Shown in pieces: positions 1-5,844 of a stretch of 5,844 nt of DNA. A program made the translations under genes and the position numbers. The notes beneath the pieces were generated by a model. The model did no database searches, was not told the origin of the DNA, and saw only the letters and a list, made by a program, of their open reading frames with translations. Source of the DNA: a bacterium (lineage in GTDB: Bacteria; UBP15; UBA6099; DSWB01); the NCBI GenBank assembly GCA_020061125.1, contig JAGUYV010000217.1, positions 1 through 5,844 of the forward strand, written 5' to 3'. Numbering within the stretch: position 1 is the first letter of the stretch; each line of letters opens with the position of its first letter.

Positions 1-782
1 GCAGCGGCAAGGGCGGCGTGGGCAAGTCCAGCTTCTCCGTGAACATGGGCATCGCGCTCACCCGGTTCGGCCACCGCGTGATGCTGCTCGACGCCGACCT
101 GGGCATGGGCAACATTGACCTGCTCCTGGGCATGACCCCGAAATACAATGTCACCCACATCCTGTCCGGGAAAAAGGATATTCAGGAAGTGGCGCTCCCC
201 GGCCCGTCAGGGGTCAAGGTTCTTCCCGCCAACTCGGGCGGCAAGCGCGTCTCCCGGTTCGAGTTCGAGGCCAAGAAGCAACTCATCCAGGGCCTGCGCG
301 AACATGTGGACATCGCGGACACGGTGTTCGTGGATGTGGGCGGGGGCCTGGACGACAACGCAATCCATTTCCTCAAGCTCGCGGACGAAGTCATCCTCAT
401 GACCACGCCCGAGCCGACGGCCATCATGGATTCCTACGGCATCGTCAAGCTCCTGGCCCAGGAGCGGGACGAGACCACGCTGCACCTGCTGGTGAACATG
501 GCGTCGGACAAGTACGACGCGCAGCATGTGGGCAGCACCATGGAGATGCTCACCAAGCAGTTCATGAATGTCACCCTGCGGGAGATGGGCTGGATCTACA
601 ACGACCCGCTGGTGCCGCGCGCCGTGCGCCAGCAGCAGCCGTTCGTGCTGCTGTACCCGGCCGCGCGCGCCACTCGTTCCATCACCGCAATCGCCGCGCG
701 GTTTGCGGATTCGGAATTCGACTTCATGGCCGAGCGCGGCCTGCGCGGCTGGATTCAGAAAATGCGCGCCCTGTTCACCTGA
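1..782 (+). CDS. flhG: FlhG/MinD-like ParA-family ATPase, 5' partial
   Basis: This is the C-terminal 259 residues of a MinD/ParA-superfamily ATPase; the frame is open at the left edge, with the first whole codon at base 3. Visible residues 3-9 are the deviant Walker A motif KGGVGKS, residues 30-39 the DADLGMGNID switch I segment, residues 108-115 the Walker B/switch II strand VFVDVGGG, and residues 133-143 the conserved TTPEPTAIMDS segment. The DADLGMGNID and TTPEPTA patterns are typical of FlhG (YlxH, FleN) rather than cell-division MinD. FlhG is known to act with the GTPase FlhF to set the site and number of flagella. The last dozen residues (LRGWIQKMRALF) look like a basic amphipathic helix of the kind MinD and FlhG use to bind membrane. 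The N-terminal DQAxxLR-type motif that stimulates FlhF would lie in the missing part. Switch II reads DVGGG where DTGAG is usual. A sigma-28 gene downstream supports the flagellar assignment. Confidence 0.9.
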   Translation, partial: SGKGGVGKSSFSVNMGIALTRFGHRVMLLDADLGMGNIDLLLGMTPKYNVTHILSGKKDIQEVALPGPSGVKVLPANSGGKRVSRFEFEAKKQLIQGLREHVDIADTVFVDVGGGLDDNAIHFLKLADEVILMTTPEPTAIMDSYGIVKLLAQERDETTLHLLVNMASDKYDAQHVGSTMEMLTKQFMNVTLREMGWIYNDPLVPRAVRQQQPFVLLYPAARATRSITAIAARFADSEFDFMAERGLRGWIQKMRALFT

Positions 783-825
783 CCGGGCGCCTGCGAAAAC
801 TTTTAGTCACTGGGGAGCCGGCATT

Positions 826-1128
826 GTGAAAATACGATTCGAAAATCTCATCGGCGCCGTGCGGGTGCTCACCGGCACATTCGCGTTCCTCATCTGGATC
901 GTCGTAGGCTCGCTGCTGTTCACCGAGCCTTTGCTGCTGGTGCTGGTCGGCATCATCGTTTTCCTGTGGTTCCATAAAATGGGCGGCGTGTTCGCCAAGC
1001 TCCTGGAACGCACGAACTACGAAATCACCGACATTGACCGGGACAAATTTGAAGTGGACACCGAAAAGAAAAGCATGGGGCGCCTGCTGGATGTGTCCCA
1101 GTCCGCCGAATTGCCGTACGGCGAATGA
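826..1128 (+). CDS. small membrane protein with two transmembrane segments, unknown function
   Basis: I do not recognise this 100-residue protein. The proposed GTG start is supported by GGGGAG at 812-817, eight bases upstream. The frame stays open further upstream into flhG, but I saw no better-supported start there. Residues 1-10 are polar. Two hydrophobic stretches follow, about 11-32 (AVRVLTGTFAFLIWIVVGSL) and 35-50 (PLLLVLVGIIVFLWFH), separated by a tight turn at TEP. Residues 51-100 form a charged tail rich in Asp, Glu and Lys. The likely topology is a two-helix hairpin with both ends in the cytoplasm (inference). It begins 43 bases after flhG with no terminator between, and the UBA-like gene follows after 55 bases, so it is probably co-transcribed with both. 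Position between flhG and the sigma factor suggests, but does not show, a link to flagellar biogenesis. Confidence 0.8.
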   Translation: MKIRFENLIGAVRVLTGTFAFLIWIVVGSLLFTEPLLLVLVGIIVFLWFHKMGGVFAKLLERTNYEITDIDRDKFEVDTEKKSMGRLLDVSQSAELPYGE

Positions 1129-1183
1129 CATGGGTTGAAACACGGGGAGCAGCACAACACTCATCAAGAGGGGAACGCGACCG

Positions 1184-2308
1184 ATGGACCAGAATGTGAA
1201 TGTACTGATGAAAACCGCGGGGTGCTCCAAGGCCGACGCGCAGAACGCGCTCAAGGAGGCCGGCAACGACATGGCCAGAGCGCTCGAACTCCTTGACGCC
1301 GCGCAACGGGAAGTGCTGGTTTTCCACCTGCGCTTCGAGAAAAAGGACGGCGAAGGCGCGGGCTTCATGACCGCCATCTTCGACACCACCAACGACGGCG
1401 CCATCTATGTGGACCTGGTCTACCCCCTGGGCGGCGACAACGCGCGCCTGCTGGACATCAACATGCCGCCCACCGTGTTCGCCAAAACCCTGGAGAGCGC
1501 AAAGGACAAGTTGAGCGAACGCCACAGGGGCACCAGCGGCAGCAACGCCACTCTGATCCGCTCCAAGCTCTCGGCCAACTTCATCCGCAAAGCCATCGAA
1601 TACCACAACCGCGCGCAGATTGACGGCATCAACAAAATCTTCGGCGAAGCGCTCAACAGCGTGTTCGGCGAGGAACTGTCCGTGCGCTACTTCGCCAGGT
1701 CCCAGACCATGAGCGCCATCGTGTCCCTGATCAAGGCCCCGGAGAGCGCGGAAAAGCCCGAGGACATCGCCTCCAAGCTGTTCGGCGCCAAGCAGGAGCC
1801 GCGCTACAACGCGCCGTCTCCGGACGACATTCAGGGCGCCTCGCCCCAGGAACCCATCCCGCAGATCGTGCTTATCTGCGAGCCGGAAATCTCGCCGTTT
1901 GCGGGCAAGCCCGCGCGGGAAATCGTGGAGGGCGAAGAGGTCATCGTCAAAATCAAGGACGCGCGCGAGTCCGCGCGCTACTTCGCCGAACTCATCGGCG
2001 GCAGCGTGGGCGACGAACTCGTGCCCCTGGTGGCCCCGGTCATCAAGACCGCCAAGGTGTCCGACACCTTCGTCGAGACCTTCGTGGAGTTCGGCCCCGG
2101 CATTTACGGCCAGTACTTCACGCCGCCCGAAGTGAAAATTAAAATGAAGACAGAGGGAATAGAAATCTACAACCCGTTCCAGGAAGAGGAATCCCTGTTC
2201 GCGGACGAACGGTTCGGGAAGCAGATCATACGCGGGCTGATCACGCTCATCGCATCCGTGGCCGTGCTGATCGTCGCGTTCGTGGTTATCGGCCTGTGGG
2301 TCAAATAA
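1184..2308 (+). CDS. UBA-like-domain protein with C-terminal membrane anchor, unknown function
   Basis: This is a 374-residue protein starting at ATG 1184, with AAGAGGGG at 1166-1173 as ribosome binding site. Residues 5-40 (LMKTAGCSKADAQNALKEAG, then NDMARALELLDAA) match the three-helix UBA/NAC-type pattern: a Gly-Cys turn, a helix with AL, a Gly-Asn-Asp turn, then a helix ending ALELL. In bacteria this fold is known at the N-terminus of EF-Ts; here it heads an otherwise unfamiliar protein. Residues 43-185 form one alpha/beta-looking region. Residues 186-225 are a Pro/Ser/Glu-rich linker, and 226-322 a second beta-rich region that includes FGPGIYGQYFTPPE. A single hydrophobic segment at about 351-372 lies at the very C-terminus, so the protein is probably tail-anchored with its soluble part in the cytoplasm. 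No catalytic motif is visible. It lies 19 bases before the sigma factor gene. The gene call is firm; the UBA reading is moderate and the function open. Confidence 0.88.
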   Translation: MDQNVNVLMKTAGCSKADAQNALKEAGNDMARALELLDAAQREVLVFHLRFEKKDGEGAGFMTAIFDTTNDGAIYVDLVYPLGGDNARLLDINMPPTVFAKTLESAKDKLSERHRGTSGSNATLIRSKLSANFIRKAIEYHNRAQIDGINKIFGEALNSVFGEELSVRYFARSQTMSAIVSLIKAPESAEKPEDIASKLFGAKQEPRYNAPSPDDIQGASPQEPIPQIVLICEPEISPFAGKPAREIVEGEEVIVKIKDARESARYFAELIGGSVGDELVPLVAPVIKTAKVSDTFVETFVEFGPGIYGQYFTPPEVKIKMKTEGIEIYNPFQEEESLFADERFGKQIIRGLITLIASVAVLIVAFVVIGLWVK

Positions 2309-2327
2309 AGGGAGACGCAACCGGAGC

Positions 2328-3113
2328 ATGGCGCTTGTGCAGCCGGCCAGCGAAGAAGACTGGCGGGCGTTCAAACACGACGGGAACGACGCTGCGCGCG
2401 GCAGGCTGGCCGAGCATTATCTGCCGTTGGTCAAATATGTGATTGACCGCATCGCGTACAAGCTGCCGGATTTCATAGACCGCGAGGATTTGATCAGCGA
2501 GGGCATCGTGGGCCTCATAGACGCCCTGGACAAATTCGAGCTGGAGAGAGACCTGAAATTCGAGACCTACGCGGTGGTGCGCATCCGCGGGGCCGTGCTG
2601 GACAGCCTGCGGCAGCTCGACTGGGTGCCGCGATCCCTGCGCCAGAGGAGCCGCGACATCGAGCGCGCATACTGCGAGGTCGAGCGCTCCCTGGGGCGCA
2701 GCGCCAGCGACGCGGAAGTGGCCACGCATCTTGGCATCAGCGTCAAGGAGCTGAACGACACCCTGTCCGATGTGGCGGGCGCAGTAGTGTTCTCCTTCGA
2801 GGAACTGCTGCAGATGAACGACGAGGACAAGCCTCTGATGTTCATCAACCGCATCAAGGACACCAACGCGGACGACCCGTCGAGCGCGCTCATCAAAAAT
2901 GAAGTCAGGCGCCTGCTGGTGCAAGCCGTGGACAACCTGCCCGGAAACGAGCGCACCATCATAGGCCTGTACTACTCGAAGAACTTTACGCTCAAGGAGA
3001 TTGGAGCGTCCCTGGGAGTCACGGAATCGCGCGTGTCGCAACTGCACGCCAAAGCGCTTGTGAGGCTCAAGGGCGCGCTGACCCGGGCCGGAGGCGAAGT
3101 GTTCGCCGAGTGA
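2328..3113 (+). CDS. fliA: RNA polymerase sigma factor, FliA/WhiG (sigma-28) family
   Basis: This 261-residue protein is a sigma-70-family factor of the FliA/SigD/WhiG type, which directs RNA polymerase to late flagellar and motility promoters (family knowledge). Region 2 spans about residues 28-105, with DLISEGIVGLIDALDKF (2.2), then FETYAVVRIRGAVLDSLR and DWVPRSLR, the signature of this subfamily. Region 3 covers about 106-165, with SDAEVATHLGISVKEL as a helix-turn-helix. Region 4 is at about 195-250, with LPGNERTIIGLYY and the DNA-binding helix-turn-helix TLKEIGASLGVTESRVSQLH. The length is normal for a family that lacks regions 1.1 and 1.2. ATG 2328 is preceded by AAAGGGAG at 2307-2314, which overlaps the stop of the previous gene, indicating translational linkage to it. 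No gene for its usual anti-sigma factor FlgM is in the window. The family call is confident; fliA rather than whiG as the symbol rests on the flhG and fapA neighbours. Confidence 0.93.
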   Translation: MALVQPASEEDWRAFKHDGNDAARGRLAEHYLPLVKYVIDRIAYKLPDFIDREDLISEGIVGLIDALDKFELERDLKFETYAVVRIRGAVLDSLRQLDWVPRSLRQRSRDIERAYCEVERSLGRSASDAEVATHLGISVKELNDTLSDVAGAVVFSFEELLQMNDEDKPLMFINRIKDTNADDPSSALIKNEVRRLLVQAVDNLPGNERTIIGLYYSKNFTLKEIGASLGVTESRVSQLHAKALVRLKGALTRAGGEVFAE

Positions 3114-3143
3114 CCCGGCGCAAAAGCCGCTCGATATTTTTTT
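3107..3143 (+). terminator. weak intrinsic terminator candidate after the sigma factor gene
   Basis: CGGC (3116-3119) pairs with GCCG (3126-3129) around the loop GCAAAA. An outer CGAG (3107-3110) can pair with CTCG (3130-3133) if TGACC bulges on the left arm. The arm runs into a seven-T stretch at 3137-3143. The hairpin overlaps the fliA stop codon. The short, bulged stem makes it weak, so readthrough into fapA is likely. Confidence 0.35.
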
Positions 3144-3172
3144 CACAATCTCAAGGCGGCAAAAAACGCTTG

Positions 3173-3181
3173 TGTTACAAT
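3173..3181 (+). promoter_or_regulatory. extended -10 promoter candidate upstream of fapA
   Basis: TGTTACAAT fits the extended -10 pattern TGnTATAAT with one mismatch. It lies in the most AT-rich part of the gap after the sigma factor, about 95 bases before the fapA ATG. No good -35 hexamer is found 16-18 bases upstream (the site reads roughly AAGGCG), which fits an extended -10 promoter or a chance match. A sigma-28 type promoter (TAAA, about 15 bases, GCCGATAA) is not evident here. Confidence 0.35.
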
Positions 3182-3232
3182 ATAAAAACCGGTACGGCCG
3201 GAGAATTGTGACACGGGGCAGGAACAAGGAAC

Positions 3233-3249
3233 GCAGCGCCATGCGCTGC
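3233..3249 (+). promoter_or_regulatory. perfect 7-bp hairpin in the fapA leader
   Basis: GCAGCGC (3233-3239) and GCGCTGC (3243-3249) are exact reverse complements separated by CAT. The stem is strong and lies 26 bases before the fapA ATG, just downstream of an AAGGA (3226-3230). It encloses the ATG at 3241. It is not followed by a T-run, so it is not an intrinsic terminator; a role in translation control or RNA stability is inference. Confidence 0.4.
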
Positions 3250-3270
3250 ACATTCAAGGCGGGAAGTTGA
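3241..3270 (+). CDS. possible nine-codon leader ORF before fapA
   Basis: ATG 3241 opens a frame encoding MRCTFKAGS and stops at TGA 3268-3270, five bases before the fapA ATG. It has its own Shine-Dalgarno-like AAGGA at 3226-3230 with a ten-base gap. Its first codons lie within the hairpin, and its stop sits between the fapA ribosome binding site and start, as expected of a coupled leader peptide. ORFs this short arise easily by chance, and no family resemblance can be judged at this length. Confidence 0.2.
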   Translation: MRCTFKAGS

Positions 3271-3275
3271 CAGAT

Positions 3276-4877
3276 ATGAGCAGCTCACCGGTAATGCTAG
3301 AGTTTTCCGACAACGGCCAGCAGGTGCTGGCGCGCGTGGATTCCAACAAGGCCCAGGGCATGCCCATCGTCGCCGATCAGGTGCTCATGGCCCTTGAGGA
3401 CATCGGCGCCCATGAATTCGAGATTGATTACGCCGCCATAGATCGCTTGATCCAGACCCAGGGCGCGAAAGCGCTGCCCATCGCCAAAAAGGTGGACGGG
3501 CGCGTCGAGGTGGAAGTGAGCGGCAGCAAAATGGAAGCCTCGGTCATGCTGGTTCCGCCGCGCGGCGGACGCCATGTGGAAGTGGAAGATGTGTCCGCGG
3601 CCCTGGCCCGGGCCGGCGTCAAGTACGGCATCAAGAAAGACGCCATCGAAAACATCGTGATGCAGCAGTGGTACAACGAAAAGGTGGTGGTGGCCGAGGG
3701 CAAGGCCCCCGAGGACGGACGCGACGGCAAAATCGAGTTTCTTTTCAACACCGAGCCGGCAGGCCCCAAGCCCACCATTGACGAGGAAGGCGAAGTTGAT
3801 TTCTACGAACTGAACATCGTGGAAAATGTGCGCATAAGCGACCCCCTTGCGGAGAAGACCCCGCCCACGGCCGGCGAAAACGGCAAGAATGTGCTCGGCG
3901 AAGACATCCCCGCAAAACCCGGCAAGGACATCCCGTTCCCCATCGGCAAGGGCGTTACATTCTCCAAAGAGAACCCGAATCTGATCGTGGCACAGTTCGC
4001 GGGACAGCCCCGGCTCCAGTCCGGGAAAATCCATGTGTATCCCGTGTACGAGGTGCAGGGCGATGTGGACTTTTCCACGGGCAACATTAATTTCGTGGGC
4101 GATGTCATCGTGCGCGGCGGCGTGCTCGAGGGATTCGTGATCAAGGCCGAAGCCAATATCACGGTCATGGGTCCGGTGGCGGGCGCCATCCTCGAGGCCG
4201 GCGGCAGCGTGATATTGAACAAGGGCATGCACGGCCAGGAAAAGGGCGTGATCACCGCGGGCGAGGATGTCAACGCAAAATTTCTCGAACACACCACCGT
4301 GAAAGCAGGCGGCACCGTGAACGCCTCGGACGGCATCATCCAGTGCAATGTCACGGCCAAGAAGAACATCCTTTGCCAGGGCCGCAAGGGGCTGATTATC
4401 GGCGGCCGCGTGTCCGCGGGCGAAGAAGTGCGCGCCAAGGTCATCGGCAACTATATGGCCACGCCCACCGAGGTCGAGGCAGGCGGCAGCCCCAAGGTGC
4501 GCGAGGAGCTGCGCCAGATCGAGGAACAGAAGAAAACCCTCAAGCTCAACCTCGACCGCACGGAAAAGGGCGTCAAGTCCCTCAAGCTCGTGCAGGAGCG
4601 CCAGGGCGCGCTGCCCCCGGACAAAAAGGATCTGCTCCTGCAGCTCACCCGCGCGCAGTTCCATCTCATGGGCCAGCTCAAGAAGCTCGAACAGCGCGAA
4701 GAGGAACTCGAAGAAATCCTGTCCTCGTCCTACAAGGGCAAGGTCACGGTCTCGGAAAATATTTATCCCGGCGTCAAGGTCATCATCAAGCAGGCCGTGC
4801 TGCATGTGCGGGACATGATCAACTCGACCACTTTCTATGAACAGGACGGGGAGATCCAGATAGGCGTGTACGGCTGA
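3276..4877 (+). CDS. fapA: FapA-family (DUF342) protein
   Basis: This 533-residue protein belongs to the FapA/DUF342 family, cytoplasmic proteins linked in Vibrio to polar flagellar assembly (family knowledge). The N-terminal region to about 190 holds the family motif around residues 137-157 (VVVAEGKAPEDGRDGKIEFL). Residues about 258-395 are a run of short Gly/Val repeats such as GDVDF, GDVIV, GPVAGAILEAGG and AGEDVNA, typical of the family's right-handed beta-helix. Residues about 405-485 are a Lys/Glu/Gln-rich coiled coil. The C-terminal cap, 486-533, has NIYPGVKVIIKQAVLHV. The protein is full length for the family. I chose ATG 3276 because GGCGGGAAG (3258-3266) is well spaced for it; TTG 3267 in the same frame would add three residues but abuts that site. 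The gene follows the sigma factor after about 160 bases and is probably co-transcribed with the next small gene, 28 bases downstream. Confidence 0.9.
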   Translation: MSSSPVMLEFSDNGQQVLARVDSNKAQGMPIVADQVLMALEDIGAHEFEIDYAAIDRLIQTQGAKALPIAKKVDGRVEVEVSGSKMEASVMLVPPRGGRHVEVEDVSAALARAGVKYGIKKDAIENIVMQQWYNEKVVVAEGKAPEDGRDGKIEFLFNTEPAGPKPTIDEEGEVDFYELNIVENVRISDPLAEKTPPTAGENGKNVLGEDIPAKPGKDIPFPIGKGVTFSKENPNLIVAQFAGQPRLQSGKIHVYPVYEVQGDVDFSTGNINFVGDVIVRGGVLEGFVIKAEANITVMGPVAGAILEAGGSVILNKGMHGQEKGVITAGEDVNAKFLEHTTVKAGGTVNASDGIIQCNVTAKKNILCQGRKGLIIGGRVSAGEEVRAKVIGNYMATPTEVEAGGSPKVREELRQIEEQKKTLKLNLDRTEKGVKSLKLVQERQGALPPDKKDLLLQLTRAQFHLMGQLKKLEQREEELEEILSSSYKGKVTVSENIYPGVKVIIKQAVLHVRDMINSTTFYEQDGEIQIGVYG

Positions 4878-4905
4878 ACCGCGCACGCGGGCAGGGGGTG
4901 AGAAC

Positions 4906-5208
4906 ATGTCCATACGCTCCGTTGACATGATGATCCTCTACTCCAAGACCGCGGATGTGGAGAAGTTTCAGCAGCAGATGCAGCAGCAGGGCGCGGTCGC
5001 GCACCAGCAGCTCACCGAGGAAGCGCAGAAGAAGCGCGAGGTGGAAAAGAGCCAGGTGCAGAAATCGCCCGAGGGGCAGGGCGGCAAGGTCGAGCGCAAG
5101 AAAGACGACGAAGGCGGACGCGGCGGCCAGCAGCATCAATTCGAGGACGAGGAAAAAAACAAGAAATTCGGCCCGCGCTCCGGCAGAAGTATTGACATTA
5201 GAATCTGA
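4906..5208 (+). CDS. small Gln-rich coiled-coil protein with IDIRI-type C-terminus
   Basis: This 100-residue soluble protein starts at ATG 4906, preceded by a purine-rich GGGGGTGAG at 4894-4902. It opens with MSIRSVDMMILYSKT and continues with a Gln/Lys/Glu-rich probable coiled coil at about 18-55 (FQQQMQQQGAVAHQQLTEEA and onward). A Gly/Arg/Asp-rich, probably disordered stretch fills about 56-93, and the chain ends in GRSIDIRI. From memory, short hypothetical proteins with this build (MSIRPVD-like start, Gln-rich middle, IDIRI/IDIRL end) occur in flagellar operons of some Firmicutes, so I read it as a member of that uncharacterised group; a database search would be needed to confirm this. 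No enzymatic motif or membrane segment is present. It follows fapA by 28 bases with no terminator and is probably its operon partner. Confidence 0.82.
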   Translation: MSIRSVDMMILYSKTADVEKFQQQMQQQGAVAHQQLTEEAQKKREVEKSQVQKSPEGQGGKVERKKDDEGGRGGQQHQFEDEEKNKKFGPRSGRSIDIRI

Positions 5209-5219
5209 CCTGATTTAAG
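5192..5219 (+). promoter_or_regulatory. sigma-70-type promoter candidate for the PRC-barrel gene
   Basis: A perfect TTGACA (5192-5197) is followed, after a 16-base spacer, by TTTAAG (5214-5219), four of six matches to TATAAT, with a TG at 5211-5212 forming an extended -10. The -35 lies inside the last codons of the preceding gene, where it also encodes part of its IDIRI tail. Transcription would start near 5226, giving a leader of about 80 bases. The hexamer could exist only because of its coding function. Confidence 0.4.
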
Positions 5220-5304
5220 ATTATATGTCCTGAACCATGGGGACTGGCAATTCTGCGTACTTAACAGACTGGCTCGCGGTTCAAACCACGCAGGAGGAGA
5301 GCAC

Positions 5305-5844
5305 ATGAAACTTAGCAGAGAATTGAGCAATTTGCCGATTGTGAGCATTGCCGAGGGTGAGGAAGTCGGCATCGTCAAGGACTTCATCATAGACCCCATG
5401 CAGAAAGCCATTGTCGCCGTGATCATCGAGGACCAGCTCTGGTTCGAGGGCGCCAAGGTCATCGAGTTCACCCTCATCCACAGCATCGGCGATTTCGCCA
5501 TCACAATCGAGAATGTTTCAGATGTCGTCTCTCTGACCAGCAAACCGGAGCTTGCCGATCTGATCAAAAAGCGGATCGACATGAAGGATGTGAAGATCAT
5601 CACCCGCGGCGGCCGGTTCGTGGGCAATGTTGTGGAGTACAGCATTGACGACCGCACCGGCGACATCCTGGGCATGGAGCTTTCCTCGGATTCCAACCTA
5701 GCCGCACCGGATCGCAACATCATCCCCGCCAGCGTGGTCGTAACCATCGGCCAGAAAGTCATCATCGTAAACGACGATGTCGAAGGCTTCCTGTGCTCGA
5801 GCCACGCCGAGGTGGCTGGCGAAATGGCCGGATCGCCGCGGCCC
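5305..5844 (+). CDS. tandem PRC-barrel-domain protein, 3' partial
   Basis: The frame is open from ATG 5305 through the right edge, giving 180 visible residues and no stop. AGGAGGAGA at 5292-5300 is a near-ideal ribosome binding site, the strongest in the window. Two PRC-barrel-like units are visible. The first, about residues 9-70, has LPIVSIAEGEEVGIVKDFII, then KAIVAVIIEDQLWFEGAKVI. The second, about 94-157, has DVKIITRGGRFVGNVVEYSI, then DRTGDILGMEL, then NIIPASVVVTIGQKVIIVND. The repeated order 'value, G-x-V-x-(D/E), D-x-x-(T/Q)-G/K, I-L/V, then a site x-I-P strand' is the family hallmark. PRC barrels are small beta domains found in the photosynthetic reaction-centre H subunit, RimM and many stress or envelope-associated bacterial proteins; they usually mediate binding and are not enzymes. 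No signal peptide is visible. The gene has its own promoter candidate and long leader, so it may be separate from the flagellar unit. What follows residue 180 is unseen. Confidence 0.85.
   Translation, partial: MKLSRELSNLPIVSIAEGEEVGIVKDFIIDPMQKAIVAVIIEDQLWFEGAKVIEFTLIHSIGDFAITIENVSDVVSLTSKPELADLIKKRIDMKDVKIITRGGRFVGNVVEYSIDDRTGDILGMELSSDSNLAAPDRNIIPASVVVTIGQKVIIVNDDVEGFLCSSHAEVAGEMAGSPRP

Follow-up and report, generated by a model that had tools for sequence, protein, structure and literature searches.

The four-base palindrome ACGT has been almost entirely eliminated from the bacterial genome to which the window belongs (the whole 5,844-nt stretch analysed here, which is also the whole of contig C330), and at least three further words of restriction-site form have been purged from the same genome. 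The analysis shows that the depletion exists, extends across the genome, is confined to one lineage, has sharp word boundaries and acts on the word rather than through C-to-T change. The best explanation, with a probability of roughly 0.75, is that they are the imprint of long and strong counter-selection, lasting until at least very recently, by Type II-like restriction-modification (R-M) systems, with ACGT as one of four or more target words.

Within the window, ACGT, which is its own reverse complement, is absent from both strands, against 14.0 copies expected under a maximum-order Markov model and 15.97 (SD 3.56) in 200 dinucleotide-preserving shuffles (P ~ 1e-6 to 1e-7). This machine count agrees with the original prediction, which had found no ACGT by eye where about 16 copies were expected, and its details were reproduced almost exactly. 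The 82 CGT trinucleotides (about 80 had been noted) are preceded by T (31), G (27) or C (24) and never by A, and the 102 ACG trinucleotides are always followed by C, G or A. All 26 junctions of Asn, Asp, His or Tyr with Val read NAT-GTN (27 had been listed; hyphens mark codon boundaries), whereas the same amino acids before GAN, GCN or GGN use C-ending codons in 64 of 67 cases and T-ending ones in only three, in line with the claim that C-ending codons dominate elsewhere. The remaining four-base palindromes occur at about their expected frequency, with the exception of CTAG, for which counts are very low. The three other purged words described below are also scarce in the window: CTSAG (0 vs ~6 expected), GRGCYC (0 vs ~8) and RTCGAY (1 vs ~7). 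All five coding frames of the window (Table 1) avoid ACGT in their codons, and one of them, the sigma-factor-like gene, has orthologues of 62-70% identity in related genomes whose ACGT content is normal.

Table 1. Features of the window and of other loci discussed in the text; names of window genes ending in "-like" are putative and were assigned by reading the sequence.
Feature	Locus	Position	Strand	Remark
Whole window	C330	1..5844	.	ACGT absent, 14-16 expected
MinD/FlhG-like frame with GKGGVGKS nucleotide-binding motif, truncated by contig start	C330	3..782	+	Codons avoid ACGT
Unnamed coding frame, 374 aa	C330	1184..2308	+	Codons avoid ACGT
Sigma-factor-like gene, FliA-like	C330	2328..3113	+	Codons avoid ACGT
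FapA-like coding frame, 536 aa	C330	3267..4877	+	Codons avoid ACGT
Unnamed frame, truncated by contig end	C330	5305..5844	+	Codons avoid ACGT
Operon of methylase (PF00145), DUF4928 (PF16280, putative nuclease) and Vsr (PF03852)	L098 (G000:C128)	417-2871		Profile matches
Mu-like prophage fragment, 4.2 kb	L099 (G000:C259)	494-4201		Mu-type late activator, GemA-like, amidase, DNA methylase
Methylase-like gene of C411	L100	14640-15611		
C5 methylase adjoining Vsr, family f3	L237	8490-9947		Counterparts in L238, L240, L241
C5 methylase-nuclease-Vsr operon	L236	8669-11489		HNH nuclease
C5 methylase-nuclease-Vsr operon	L239	7749-10338		NgoFVII-like nuclease

The original prediction had held that such a loss would have to be genome-wide, and a count against a model beyond the window bears this out. 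The assembly comprises 4.1 Mb in 513 contigs and is 79% complete; 61 readable contigs (551,717 bases, or 552 kb, 13%) were used as the genome sample, with contigs that read N left out and the prophage contig C259 counted apart. ACGT occurs 20 times in this sample against 1,262 expected (ratio 0.016), and both coding DNA (9 vs 1,092, or 0.008, in all three frames) and intergenic DNA (5 vs 96) are depleted. These ratios lie far below 0.78, the level under which an orthodox Type II site is regarded as avoided. The depletion is exact to the word: none of ACGA, ACGC, ACGG and TCGT falls below expectation. Seven genomes of the order were compared, among which the source genome is the sole member of its family; the purge is absent from the six others (observed/expected ratios 0.74-1.13), indicating that it is specific to the source lineage.

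The few sites that remain are not evenly distributed. Six of the 20 residual ACGT sites of the sampled genome lie in the 16S rRNA gene (1,575 bp), which holds 16 purged-word sites in total (6 ACGT, 4 CTSAG, 2 RTCGAY and 4 GRGCYC), compared with four in the remaining 12.4 kb of its contig. The persistence of these sites implies that the cell tolerates the words where RNA function demands them, a pattern more in keeping with sites that are methylated and individually of little cost than with a nuclease against which there is no protection. Among protein genes, those with GC3 < 0.70 carry purged words at 0.60/kb, a fivefold higher density than the 0.12/kb of the others, and such a concentration in low-GC3 genes is as expected of recent imports. 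Since an absent word would return with neutral divergence once selection stops, the ~1% of sites left suggests that selection is current or has ended very recently.

The picture widened when every word of 4 to 6 bases was scanned in the genome sample. The avoidance of ACGT was confirmed, but ACGT proved to be only one of the purged words, in addition to CTSAG (CTCAG/CTGAG; 1 vs 421 expected), RTCGAY (17 vs 495) and GRGCYC (27 vs 565). The boundary of RTCGAY is sharp, as the other NTCGAN contexts are unpurged (e.g., observed/expected counts of 0/110 for GTCGAC and 105/70 for GTCGAG), and the other GNGCNC contexts are likewise unpurged.

Different words have been purged in the relatives. In genomes G002-G004 and G006, which represent one genus, CCWGG is found twice against 504 expected, whereas CCSGG is normal; Pro before Gly is encoded there only by CCC and CCG, with CCA or CCT in none of 221 cases. 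The same genomes have lost GRGCYC (18 vs 217 expected), which is unpurged in G001 and G005. CCWGG is also depleted in G005 (3 vs 65), and RGATCY in G001 (5 vs 46). Searches of the relatives for EcoRII-C and MvaI/BcnI nucleases, which would act on CCWGG, returned none, and the controls also gave no match. The relatives of family f3, which have lost CCWGG, carry a conserved C5 methylase that adjoins Vsr and has no adjacent nuclease. This arrangement resembles the Dcm-Vsr system (CCWGG) of Escherichia coli; however, E. coli keeps CCWGG, which the f3 genomes have removed, and their methylase is at most a candidate CCWGG enzyme. Two more C5 methylase-nuclease-Vsr operons were observed in relatives (Table 1).

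The original prediction had offered two causes for the loss of ACGT, a restriction enzyme of this specificity or a cytosine methyltransferase whose product decays by deamination to ATGT/ACAT, so that mutation rather than selection would have removed the word. The latter has some attraction, because the known ACGT methylase M.MaeII makes 5-methylcytosine (PMC10113651), deamination could turn NAC-GTN into NAT-GTN, and ATGT/ACAT are slightly raised; yet the rise is only 1.11-fold, and the codons contradict deamination. Genes were called by a model of codon usage, and expectations were taken from codon pairs or from shuffles of synonymous codons, which gave 1 site against 287 expected in the ACG-T frame (1/206 in the first sample), 7 against 768 in the NAC-GTN frame (7/549) and 1 against 37 in the NNA-CGT frame (1/27). 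In the last of these, both deamination products (TGT and CAT) replace Arg. Deamination alone would therefore have spared this frame, and its equally deep depletion argues for selection against the word itself. Moreover, ACG accounts for only 1 of 648 Thr codons before a T-starting codon, and deamination would have filled ACA in its place; the share of ACA among ACA, ACC and ACT is an ordinary 0.280 (0.308 for Ala and 0.287 for Gly in the same context). CCWGG in the relatives behaves alike, with both Pro codons that would complete the word gone before Gly. Losses are thus not channelled to ATGT/ACAT and do not spare sites where these products would be non-synonymous, and deamination was rejected as a very improbable cause. 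Restriction gained support from the kind of change, the further words and the words of the relatives, although the enzyme itself was not found.

Counter-selection by R-M systems is preferred because it accounts for selection at the level of the word, for three further words of restriction form and for different purged words in relatives, as well as for the sites kept by 16S rRNA, the denser words of low-GC3 genes, the pattern of C259 described below and the precedent of Helicobacter pylori. The agent for ACGT would be a specific restriction enzyme together with a methylase that protects the remaining sites. Host sites that are briefly unmethylated would now and then be cut, giving each extra site a slight cost, and over many generations synonymous site-destroying substitutions of any kind would become fixed, until sites were left only where they cannot be changed, as in 16S rRNA, or in genes imported a short time ago. 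The genes of this agent may lie in the ~21% missing from the assembly or on an unbinned element, or may have been lost very recently. Three points weigh against this explanation: no ACGT nuclease or methylase was identified among the families searched, the purged words outnumber the native methylases found, and the completeness of the purge exceeds most published cases.

Avoidance of ACGT is already known in H. pylori, where only 0.05 of the expected ACGT and 0.02 of the expected GTAC remain and the enzymes are known (PMC3849833); under another model GTAC is at 0.11 (PMC12366791). The two cases are alike in that ACGT is nearly gone together with several other sites (in H. pylori ACGT/HpyCH4IV, GTAC, CTNAG and others; PMC3849833), but the depletion is deeper here, the other words differ and the ACGT enzyme was not found. 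The MaeII system of Methanococcus aeolicus (PMC10113651) shares the recognition word; a gene pair related to it was not identified in the present genome. In a broader survey, Rusinov et al. (2015) reported that 47.9% of orthodox Type II sites are avoided, at ratios of 0.78 or less, attributed this to long-lived systems combined with incomplete methylation, and interpreted some of the avoided sites as relics of systems since lost (PMC4687349). Short palindromic sites are under-represented in both studies; whereas the threshold in that set is 0.78, four words together stand here at 0.002-0.05 in coding DNA. What is new is an unusually complete case, from which we infer the responsible enzyme. 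Single words are deeply purged elsewhere too: when we roughly surveyed 64 other bacterial loci, a ratio below 0.12 was seen for some word of 4-5 bases, CTAG aside, in six of them. To our knowledge, the present genome is among the most complete restriction-word purges, as its coding DNA retains just 0.2-5% of the expected copies of four words. Within the seven genomes of this order, sister families have purged different words. Such purges can serve as a fossil record of the restriction enzymes of a lineage, including those that an incomplete assembly misses, and the purged words can be used as predictions for methylation state.

The MaeII/HpyCH4IV-like system that the original prediction had proposed to look for was not found in the assembled genome (79% complete): neither a nuclease nor a methylase specific for ACGT turned up among C5, N6/N4, PF02384 and PF07669 methylases (the last two families without any match in the source genome) or among the minority of nuclease families covered. 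Two methylases of near-native codon usage were found, fewer than the four purged words. That of C172 is solitary, carries a DPPY motif and has no match above 31% identity in the relatives' loci searched; the methylase-like gene of C411 has counterparts of 56-60% identity in all six relatives and is not flanked by an obvious nuclease gene. Within the source genome, a C5 methylase was found in the C128 operon only. Known ACGT methylases are C5 enzymes and the DUF4928 protein of this operon matches the PADLOC model of a Type II restriction enzyme, so the operon could be thought to encode the ACGT system and to have caused the purge. However, its GC3 of 0.49-0.51, against 0.79 for the genome, points to a recent import that has not had time to produce such a purge. 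The same order of C5 methylase, DUF4928 and Vsr is seen on Pseudomonas aeruginosa, Serratia and Burkholderia plasmids, and other plasmids carry the methylase and DUF4928 as a pair; plasmids with a related operon have normal ACGT, no avoidance was seen in 80 genome loci whose DUF4928 is 51-69% identical, and the C128 operon itself contains one ACGT. Its role as the cause was hence judged quite unlikely. A purge caused not by a resident R-M system but, for example, by nucleases of passing plasmids or phages, by limits on the exchange of DNA or by some further agent with sequence specificity would account for the lack of matching R-M genes for the four words and for the f3 relatives, which purged CCWGG with neither of the nucleases sought there being found (in a search whose controls gave no match either). 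This is still rather unlikely, as all the words look like Type II sites, the search covered only part of the nuclease families, the assembly is incomplete and binning tends to lose mobile defence genes. Digestion of the DNA with an ACGT cutter before sequencing would also yield contigs free of the word, but such an artefact is extremely improbable, considering that unbroken 20-kb stretches with 45-50 expected sites contain none or one, that codons have been rewritten rather than lost, and that the 16S gene keeps its six sites within one contig.

Relatives of DUF4928 occur in many phyla, and hardly any GGACC/GGTCC is left in the vicinity of several DUF4928 loci (L147 of Rhizorhabdus histidinilytica, 0/28, as well as L129, L151, L177 and L183). 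Reading the specificity of DUF4928 from depleted words was nevertheless abandoned: GGACC was the deepest word in several carriers, but control loci were low too (0.63).

The prophage fragment C259 behaves differently from the rest of the genome with respect to ACGT, which is present at 8 copies against 11 expected in the whole contig (8 vs 10.3 in its genes), whereas CTSAG, RTCGAY and GRGCYC together occur only twice in its genes against 10.9 expected, a count as low being reached in none of 2000 shuffles. GemA was found on C259 only; a search for further prophage contigs with the Mu portal (PF06074) returned none, with no match in the control either, and no viral contigs related to C259 or DUF4928 were found. 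The DNA methylase of C259 carries a TSPPY motif, which we take to be typical of N4-cytosine enzymes. In the simplest reading of this one short contig, the methylase would protect ACGT and so free the fragment from selection on that word; alternatively, C259 could come from a sister lineage without an ACGT system. It is also conceivable, though unlikely, that several short words are kept near elimination in this order without a resident enzyme for each, by another sequence-specific agent or by enzymes of mobile elements that come and go, and that prophages track the avoided words of the host individually and are exempt only for the word that their own methylase protects. By avoiding three words but not ACGT while carrying a methylase of its own, C259 may represent a word-by-word record of counter-defence.
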